This document shows positions 61,690-63,369 of a stretch of DNA of 64,000 bases, piece after piece. Below the pieces are notes generated by a model that was not told the origin of the DNA, ran no database searches, and saw only the letters and a list, made by a program, of their open reading frames with translations. Source of the DNA: an uncultured Bdellovibrionales bacterium (GTDB lineage Bacteria; Bdellovibrionota; Bdellovibrionia; Bdellovibrionales; Bdellovibrionaceae); assembly GCA_903926205.1 (NCBI GenBank), contig CAIYID010000064.1, forward strand, positions 1 through 64,000, read 5' to 3'. Position 1 is the stretch's first letter. The number at the start of each line of letters is the position of its first letter. Position numbers and translations under genes: made by a program.

Positions 61690-61839
61690 GATAAACCTCC
61701 AAAAATTCCGCTTGAGTTAATGGCACCCACCACTCTGATTGCCATCCCACATAAATTCTGGGTTTATTTTTAAAAATGTCAATGCTTCGCCAGCTCAATA
61801 AACAAACAGAATTATAGACAGCCAAAAACCTCCGTGCTA

Positions 61840-62097
61840 ATGACTCGTCCTGAAATGTCCACGAGAAATCCCACTCCAAAAAGAATTCAACCCAGCATCA
61901 AACACGAGGCTGTCAATCCTCGTGATTACCTAAAATATAATTTGCCGTGGGCCTGTGAAGATTGCTCTCATTATAATTTCGAAAATGATAACTGCTCTTT
62001 TGGCTGTCACGTTAAGTGGCACAAAAAAGAATATCAAAAACACGCCTATGAGCTGAGCGGACGTATGGCTTTATGCCGTTTTCAAGAAATTGACTAG
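61840..62097 (+). CDS. Small cysteine-rich protein, possibly zinc-binding
   Basis: 85 residues from ATG 61840 (GTG 61834 or ATG 61855 also possible). The centre has CEDCSHYNFENDNCSFGCHVKWH and a later LCRF: CxxC and CxxxC with His, a pattern that could bind zinc or iron. The N-terminus is basic and Pro-rich. It diverges from clpB. Coding is supported by the clustered Cys/His and even composition; no family recognised. Confidence 0.5.
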   Translation: MTRPEMSTRNPTPKRIQPSIKHEAVNPRDYLKYNLPWACEDCSHYNFENDNCSFGCHVKWHKKEYQKHAYELSGRMALCRFQEID

Positions 62098-62235
62098 TCC
62101 TTGGCCTAAAATAAAACCCCTCGAGTGTCAAATTTCCCTCTATTGGAGCTCATTTCCAGTCCATTGTCCCTAGAGTTAATATCTGATGAAAGTCTAATTT
62201 TAAATTTTCTAGAAAAAAACAGGCCTACGGTCCTG

Positions 62236-62262
62236 TCAACTTCATAACATATCTGTCGATCA
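62236..62262 (+). promoter_or_regulatory. Candidate sigma28 (FliA) promoter of the flagellin gene
   Basis: TCAA (62236-62239), a 15-base spacer, and GTCGATCA (62255-62262) compare with TAAA-N15-GCCGATAA. Three of four and six of eight bases match, with exact spacing. Late flagellar genes use sigma28 in many bacteria. Confidence 0.5.
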
Positions 62263-62494
62263 GTCCTGTGTCACACGTTTGACTGTGTGGGAAATAAATA
62301 CGGATGAAGGATTCACCCAGAGAAGCCGTCAGTTCTCTGAGAAAAAAGAAAAGGAGGTTTTCACGGAAGAGTACTAAATACTGAAGCAGTATTTTTAGGA
62401 AATAAGTGAGAACGAAAAGGAAATCTTAAACTCACTTAAGGCTCGGAAGCCGTCCCCAGTAGCAAGGGGAACTTAAACAAGGAGGAAATTTTTT

Positions 62495-62512
62495 ATGAAT
62501 TTAATAAATTAA
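62495..62512 (+). CDS. Five-codon leader mini-ORF before fliC
   Basis: ATG AAT TTA ATA AAT TAA encodes MNLIN. A strong AAGGAGG is placed properly upstream, and the stop is 23 bases before the flagellin ATG, which has its own GGAGG. Such a well-placed start with an immediate stop suggests a translated leader or a ribosome standby site. No experimental support. Confidence 0.4.
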   Translation: MNLIN

Positions 62513-62535
62513 TTATTTTAACGGAGGAATTTTAT

Positions 62536-63369
62536 ATGGGTATGCGTGTAACAACAAATATAGCAGCTTTAAATGCTCAAAGAAATTTAATTGGTAGCCA
62601 ACGTCAAATCAGTAAAAGCATGGCGCAGTTATCTAGCGGTAGTCGTATCAACATCGCGGCGGATGATGCTGCCGGGTTGGCCATCAGTGAACGCTTGAAA
62701 TCAAGTATCCGATCTGCTCGACAAGCCAATCGCAATGCGAACGATGGTATTTCGCTAGTGCAAACGGCTGAGGGCGGCTTGAATGAAATCGGAAATATCG
62801 TCACTCGTCTGCGTGAGTTAGGAATCCAAGCATCATCTGACACCGTCGGAGATACAGAGCGCGGTTTCATTCACAAAGAGGTCGCTCAACTAAAAGAGGA
62901 AATTCAACGGATCTCTGCAACAACCTCTTGGGGCAAAACTAAACTCTTGGACGGTTCTACTCAATCATTCGATTTTCAAGTTGGTATCTATAACAATGAG
63001 AAGGAAGATCGAATCTCTTTCAACGCAGCAGAAAATAATGCGTCTCTAGACTCATTAGGATTGTCAGGAATTGACTACACTTCTAAAGAGGGAGCTCAAC
63101 AAGCTCTGTCGCAACTAGACACGGCACAAACCAGCGTCAATGGATTTCGTGCAAATCTGGGAGCTCTGCAAAATCGACTATCTTCTACAGTTGATAACTT
63201 AGCTGTTTATGAAGAAAACATGAGTGCAGCGAATTCACGAATTCGTGATACAGACGTCGCTCAAGCGTCTTCAGAGATGACTCGCAATAACATCTTATTA
63301 CAAGCTGGGACTGCGACCTTGGCTCAAGCCAATCAAGTGAATCAATTAGCCTTGAAACTCTTGGGTTGA
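62536..63369 (+). CDS. fliC: Flagellin
   Basis: 277 residues, the short form with only D0/D1 domains. The conserved N-terminus (VTTNIAALNAQRNL, LSSGSRINIAADDAAGLAISE, NANDGISLVQTAEGGLNEI) and C-terminus (ENMSAANSRIRDTDVAQ, LQAGTATLAQANQVNQLALKLL) pair to form the filament core. There is no variable D2/D3 region. It is exported by the flagellar secretion system. GGAGG lies ten bases upstream. Only one flagellin lies in the window; relatives often have several. A terminator follows. Confidence 0.97.
   Translation: MGMRVTTNIAALNAQRNLIGSQRQISKSMAQLSSGSRINIAADDAAGLAISERLKSSIRSARQANRNANDGISLVQTAEGGLNEIGNIVTRLRELGIQASSDTVGDTERGFIHKEVAQLKEEIQRISATTSWGKTKLLDGSTQSFDFQVGIYNNEKEDRISFNAAENNASLDSLGLSGIDYTSKEGAQQALSQLDTAQTSVNGFRANLGALQNRLSSTVDNLAVYEENMSAANSRIRDTDVAQASSEMTRNNILLQAGTATLAQANQVNQLALKLLG

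Follow-up and report, generated by a model that had tools for sequence, protein, structure and literature searches.

A conserved mini-ORF and GGA-loop hairpins in the flagellin leaders of Bdellovibrionota suggest a CsrA/FliW-controlled translation switch

The window, a 64,000-nucleotide stretch of a Bdellovibrionales genome, carries near its end fliC (62536–63369, ATG at 62536, 277 aa), one of the eight flagellin genes of that genome, which, like all leader features described below, lies on the forward (+) strand. It is preceded by a leader of about 265 nt containing hairpins, three Shine–Dalgarno (SD) sites and a mini-ORF encoding MNLIN, behind a FliA (sigma28)-type promoter, TCAA-N15-GTCGATCA (62236–62262). 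The same promoter pattern, in the form TCAA-N15-[GC][TC]CGA[TA][CA]A, recurs upstream of fliC in many relatives, and the consensus published for Bdellovibrio bacteriovorus FliA is TTAAG-N16-CCGATA (PMC3627812). Transcription is predicted to start at about 62268–62274. Between a ClpB-like gene and fliC lies a small Cys-rich ORF (61834–62097, 87 aa, CEDCSHY...); a similar protein is encoded in the same position upstream of fliC in L139, and this neighbourhood is thus conserved.

Reading towards fliC, the leader contains a first candidate CsrA site, the hairpin GG-UGAAGGAUUCA-CC with GGA in its loop (62302–62318; counterparts GGTTGAAGGAATCAACC and GGTTGATGGATCAACC in relatives), and directly after it a hairpin of the form CAGAGAA-loop-TTCTCTG (62318–62339). 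The stem of the latter covaries in about 15 relatives, and GTCA recurs in its loop, frequently as part of GGTCA; neither is a CsrA motif. Beside it stands a conserved module that combines an SD-like site with two GGA motifs, AAAGGAGG-N-TCACGGAAGA (62349–62370), a candidate pair of CsrA sites. Next come the hairpin AAATACTG/CAGTATTT (62376–62394), shared with a same-genus leader, and the hairpin UAAGUGAG/CUCACUUA with AGGA in a large loop (62403–62438). The main candidate CsrA site is the hairpin GGC[UCGGAA]GCC (GGCUCGGAAGCC, 62440–62451), separated by a UCCCC/GGGGA hairpin (62453–62470) from the mini-ORF ribosome site ACAAGGAGG (AAGGAGG, 62479–62485), which itself overlaps a candidate CsrA site. 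The mini-ORF ATGAATTTAATAAATTAA (MNLIN*, 62495–62512) and the fliC ribosome site ACGGAGG (62521–62527) complete the leader. In total, it contains 13 GGA motifs, and SD-like GGAGG occurs at 62353, 62481 and 62523.

An earlier note on this DNA had described the promoter, the three SD sites and MNLIN with its own ribosome site, and all were found where it placed them. In place of its four successive hairpins, we count six or seven local ones. A repeated word, GAAGCCGTC, which it also pointed out, is present in the window but absent from the leader of every relative, and its repetition is put down to chance. Three of the local hairpins are more stable than nearly all shuffled sequences, namely 62376–62394 (z −6.7), 62403–62438 (z −2.7) and 62453–62470 (z −2.7). 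Given that the whole window leader is not unusually stable relative to shuffles (z −1.0), folding of this single sequence is weak evidence, and the case rests on comparative data. RNAalifold on four full leaders gave no convincing global structure except for the 62440–62451 hairpin and the adjacent one, and an Rfam search returned no match at the gathering score and nothing relevant below threshold.

For the comparison we assembled 86 flagellin leaders, 78 from public genomes and 8 from the window's own genome. Each was searched for an SD-driven ATG ORF, closed before fliC, within the last 75 nt. Such a mini-ORF was found in 57 of the 86 leaders against 3.0 ± 1.55 in shuffled leaders (maximum 7), counts that are non-independent because the leaders share ancestry. 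Applied to the genes of the window as a control, the same search succeeded for only 2 of 43, fliC included. Closure before the fliC start was observed for 57 of 58 candidates with SD and ATG, where 29.6 would be expected from shuffling the stretch between both starts, and in three further leaders (L040, L057 and L088) GTG or TTG replaces ATG. The mini-ORFs are 3–9 codons long and have very strong SDs; the distance from their stops to the fliC ATG, 0–33 nt, would suit coupling. They thus share the layout known from iraD: a short ORF with its own SD and a stop beside the target start.

Non-conservation of this layout had been named in the earlier note as grounds for discarding its proposal; instead, conservation across the order holds for the mini-ORF and its SD as well as for the GGA-loop hairpin. 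Conservation of the mini-ORF even extends to other families of the phylum, where it is present in 21 of 39 flagellin leaders (shuffled 1.4). Outside the phylum, no mini-ORF was present in a small outgroup of 10 flagellin leaders (Actinomycetota, Bacillota and Pseudomonadota), though several of them have CsrA-like GGA hairpins. Two entries, L053 and L080 (CALQIT020000018.1 and CALQIT020000013.1), are titled Streptomyces griseus and encode Bdellovibrionales-type flagellins, probably reflecting a mislabelled metagenome bin. Within the window's genome, two of the eight flagellins have a mini-ORF (MNLIN* at fliC and MQGG* at L105) and six have none, which counts against the switch proposed below. 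Flagellin paralogues that lack a mini-ORF, namely L103, L082, L092 and L247, have in common the leader word CAACGTG between promoter and ATG.

Some mini-ORFs, that of the window among many, end upstream of the fliC SD in any frame; others cross it. Those that cross it and are closed use the frame GGA-GRN-stop in 38 of 39 cases (23/24 in the order and 15/15 outside it), and when closure is not required the proportion is 39 of 42. Neither a binding site nor a spare SD would require such a fixed frame. The encoded peptides, by contrast, vary (MNLIN, MKNKY, MELKT, MQGG, MFEGD), while start, SD and closure are kept; since the peptides are unconserved, it appears to be the act of translation, not its product, that has been maintained. 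We accordingly rejected a functional peptide. A translated-looking ORF is conserved, as would be expected if the peptide itself acted, by nascent-chain stalling or as a small protein, but with 3–9 residues of unconserved sequence, whose terminal GG or GD follows from the SD sequence, the chance of this is close to nil.

The second conserved element is the GGA-loop hairpin. In the form GGC[UNGGAW]GCC it recurs upstream of the mini-ORF SD. Every one of the 41 aligned leaders retains the GGA, while both strands of the stem vary (GC to AU in five and in two rows). Covariation of this hairpin scored 0.250 versus 0.130 ± 0.014, with none of 500 shuffles as high, in an alignment anchored on leaders picked for a stem, so that pairing was favoured by construction. 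A sequence pattern that makes no use of stem choice still matched 19 places in 18 of 60 genomes, mostly beside flagellin, against 5 for the reversed control. A covariance model, likewise independent of that choice, found matches in 27 of 40 genomes, nearly always once each and for the most part at flagellin genes (gene context was examined for some). Two of its matches, L235 and L236, are not at flagellin; L235 lacks the GGA and both lack a mini-ORF, and they were set aside as chance hits or another target.

Moreover, GGA motifs are in excess in the leaders, with 138 of them in loops versus 51.6 ± 6.2 after shuffling, and the module AAAGGAGG-N-TCA[AC]GGANGA is present in 28 of 86 leaders, where shuffled sets average 0.02. 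GGA also overlaps the SD at both ribosome sites, ACAAGGAGG for the mini-ORF and ACGGAGG for fliC. An ANGGAN hexaloop is a high-affinity CsrA/RsmE site (PMC7652899); relative to this RsmE consensus, the first loop base of the hairpins described here is mostly U. With the invariant GGA in its loop, the hairpin has the form of a CsrA site, and it may bind CsrA.

Both proteins that such regulation would require are encoded: csrA and fliW occur together in 33 of 33 complete genomes. In the window's genome they adjoin, in the order flgL-csrA-fliW, where flgL is named from its sequence. The CsrA encoded there has 75 aa, retains the RNA-binding residues L4 and R44 as read from the translation, and aligns up to residue 74, including the C-terminal extension, with the CsrA chain of the solved CsrA–FliW complex 5dmb; the FliW likewise matches the FliW chain of that complex.

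Considering these elements together, we regard it as fairly probable that the leader is a CsrA/FliW-controlled translation switch in which fliC is coupled to the mini-ORF. The data suggest that a ribosome first has to read a tiny gene before flagellin is made. The earlier note had listed CsrA, FliW and mini-ORF coupling as separate options for the control of flagellin translation; the comparative evidence favours all three, which would fit together as one mechanism. In the proposed sequence of events, transcription from the FliA promoter would yield the leader of about 265 nt, whose several GGA sites, some in hairpin loops, would bind CsrA dimers. The decisive sites are probably the 62440–62451 hairpin and, some 35 nt further on, the GGAGG within the mini-ORF ribosome site, and CsrA bound there would keep ribosomes off the mini-ORF. 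Once FliW released the leader from CsrA, ribosomes could load at the strong mini-ORF site, read 3–9 codons and terminate at the fliC ribosome site or shortly ahead of it, and would then either re-initiate on fliC or leave its ribosome site open for the next ribosome. Flagellin output in the window's organism would thereby be tied to FliW and hence to flagellar export.

The main weakness of the coupling model concerns the fliC SD. Its mean unpaired probability is 0.48 across leaders and 0.30 in the window, so that predicted sequestration is not clear; as the site is not clearly buried, fliC may also be translated without the mini-ORF. A rival scheme is CsrA/FliW control of the kind known from Bacillus hag and Campylobacter flaA, in which CsrA occludes the SD and FliW lifts the block (PMC7652899, PMC4894983). 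Here fliC would be repressed at its own SD, and the mini-ORF would be a side effect of a strong upstream SD serving as a CsrA site. Both SDs do contain GGA and resemble CsrA sites, the fliC SD is not strongly buried, and CsrA-like hairpins occur in paralogues and in other phyla where no mini-ORF is present. Nevertheless, the start of the mini-ORF, its alternative starts, its closure and its frame are conserved beyond shuffles, and a CsrA site needs none of these, which makes direct repression at the SD an unlikely account of the leader.

There are two further alternatives. The mini-ORF and its SD might mainly load ribosomes, boosting and protecting a very abundant mRNA without any involvement of CsrA. 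Very strong SDs, very short ORFs ending beside the fliC SD and the abundance of flagellin would all agree with such a role, which we nonetheless consider improbable, as it leaves the covarying GGA-loop hairpins, the GGA excess and the constant presence of csrA and fliW unexplained. The leader might also act chiefly as a sponge, drawing CsrA off other flagellar mRNAs by titration, a role suggested for the Campylobacter flaA leader (PMC4894983), and the number of GGA motifs in the window leader would suit it. As the chief function this is highly improbable, given that it does not explain the conserved mini-ORF, but titration could coexist with the coupled switch.

The coupled switch that we favour has its closest counterpart in E. 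coli iraD, where CsrA blocks a short leader ORF (ORF27) whose stop overlaps the iraD start, and repression acts entirely via coupling (PMC5574718). As in iraD/ORF27, several CsrA-type sites are found here, one of them over the SD of a short leader ORF that ends at the start of the regulated gene. The differences are that gene and phylum are others, that E. coli lacks FliW, that the 3–9-codon ORFs described here often cross the target SD and that the fliC SD shows no clear sequestration. With Bacillus subtilis hag (PMC7652899, PMC6529632), the leader shares a flagellin mRNA, the presence of csrA and fliW, and an upstream GGA combined with a GGA over the SD; hag, however, has two sites, and its SD is occluded directly, without any reported mini-ORF, whereas more GGA sites and a mini-ORF are present here. 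Campylobacter jejuni flaA (PMC4894983), with two GGA hexaloops under CsrA–FliW control, is likewise a sigma28-dependent flagellin mRNA, and its hexaloops recall the covarying GGA-loop hairpins of this study, but its leader is only 45 nt long and no mini-ORF has been reported for it. The leader of the window joins both anatomies, an iraD-type upstream ORF and candidate CsrA sites like those of hag and flaA. In the open-access papers searched, no account of such a leader turned up, nor any report that links CsrA to Bdellovibrio flagellin in the relevant sense.

A broader proposal is that the arrangement is a Bdellovibrionota-wide element, in which CsrA and FliW would gate a mini-ORF whose translation is obligatory. 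Ribosomes would read it as far as the flagellin SD or across it, keeping to the fixed frame GGA-GRN-stop where they cross, and would then terminate and re-initiate; we consider this generalization about as likely as not. If true, it would constitute a distinct regulatory architecture in these predators and their relatives, absent from the few flagellin leaders checked elsewhere, and control by CsrA via an upstream ORF, known from iraD, would extend to flagellin. The combination of a variable peptide with a constrained frame, found far beyond Bdellovibrio, would also offer many natural variants for the study of re-initiation after very short ORFs. Bdellovibrio alternates between a flagellated hunting form and a form that grows without motility. 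FliA has been proposed as its global attack-phase regulator (PMC3627812), and gating of a mini-ORF by CsrA/FliW would give the switch between the two forms a further, translational level of control.

Long FliA-dependent flagellin leaders have a precedent in the genome G036, which we take to be that of B. bacteriovorus HD100. The attack-phase transcript APsRNA3 (561,854–561,981; L247:455-582 on G036:C1) has a FliA promoter (PMC3627812). Its start lies 276 nt before the ATG of a flagellin gene (562,130) and is immediately preceded by a FliA-like element. This indicates that FliA starts at about this distance from flagellin do occur, although the flagellin concerned is a paralogue that lacks the mini-ORF layout. 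Karunker's APsRNA4 was also weighed as a possible flagellin leader but discarded, because it maps immediately behind a flagellin gene. APsRNA3 itself probably represents the 5' portion of a flagellin leader and not an independent sRNA.
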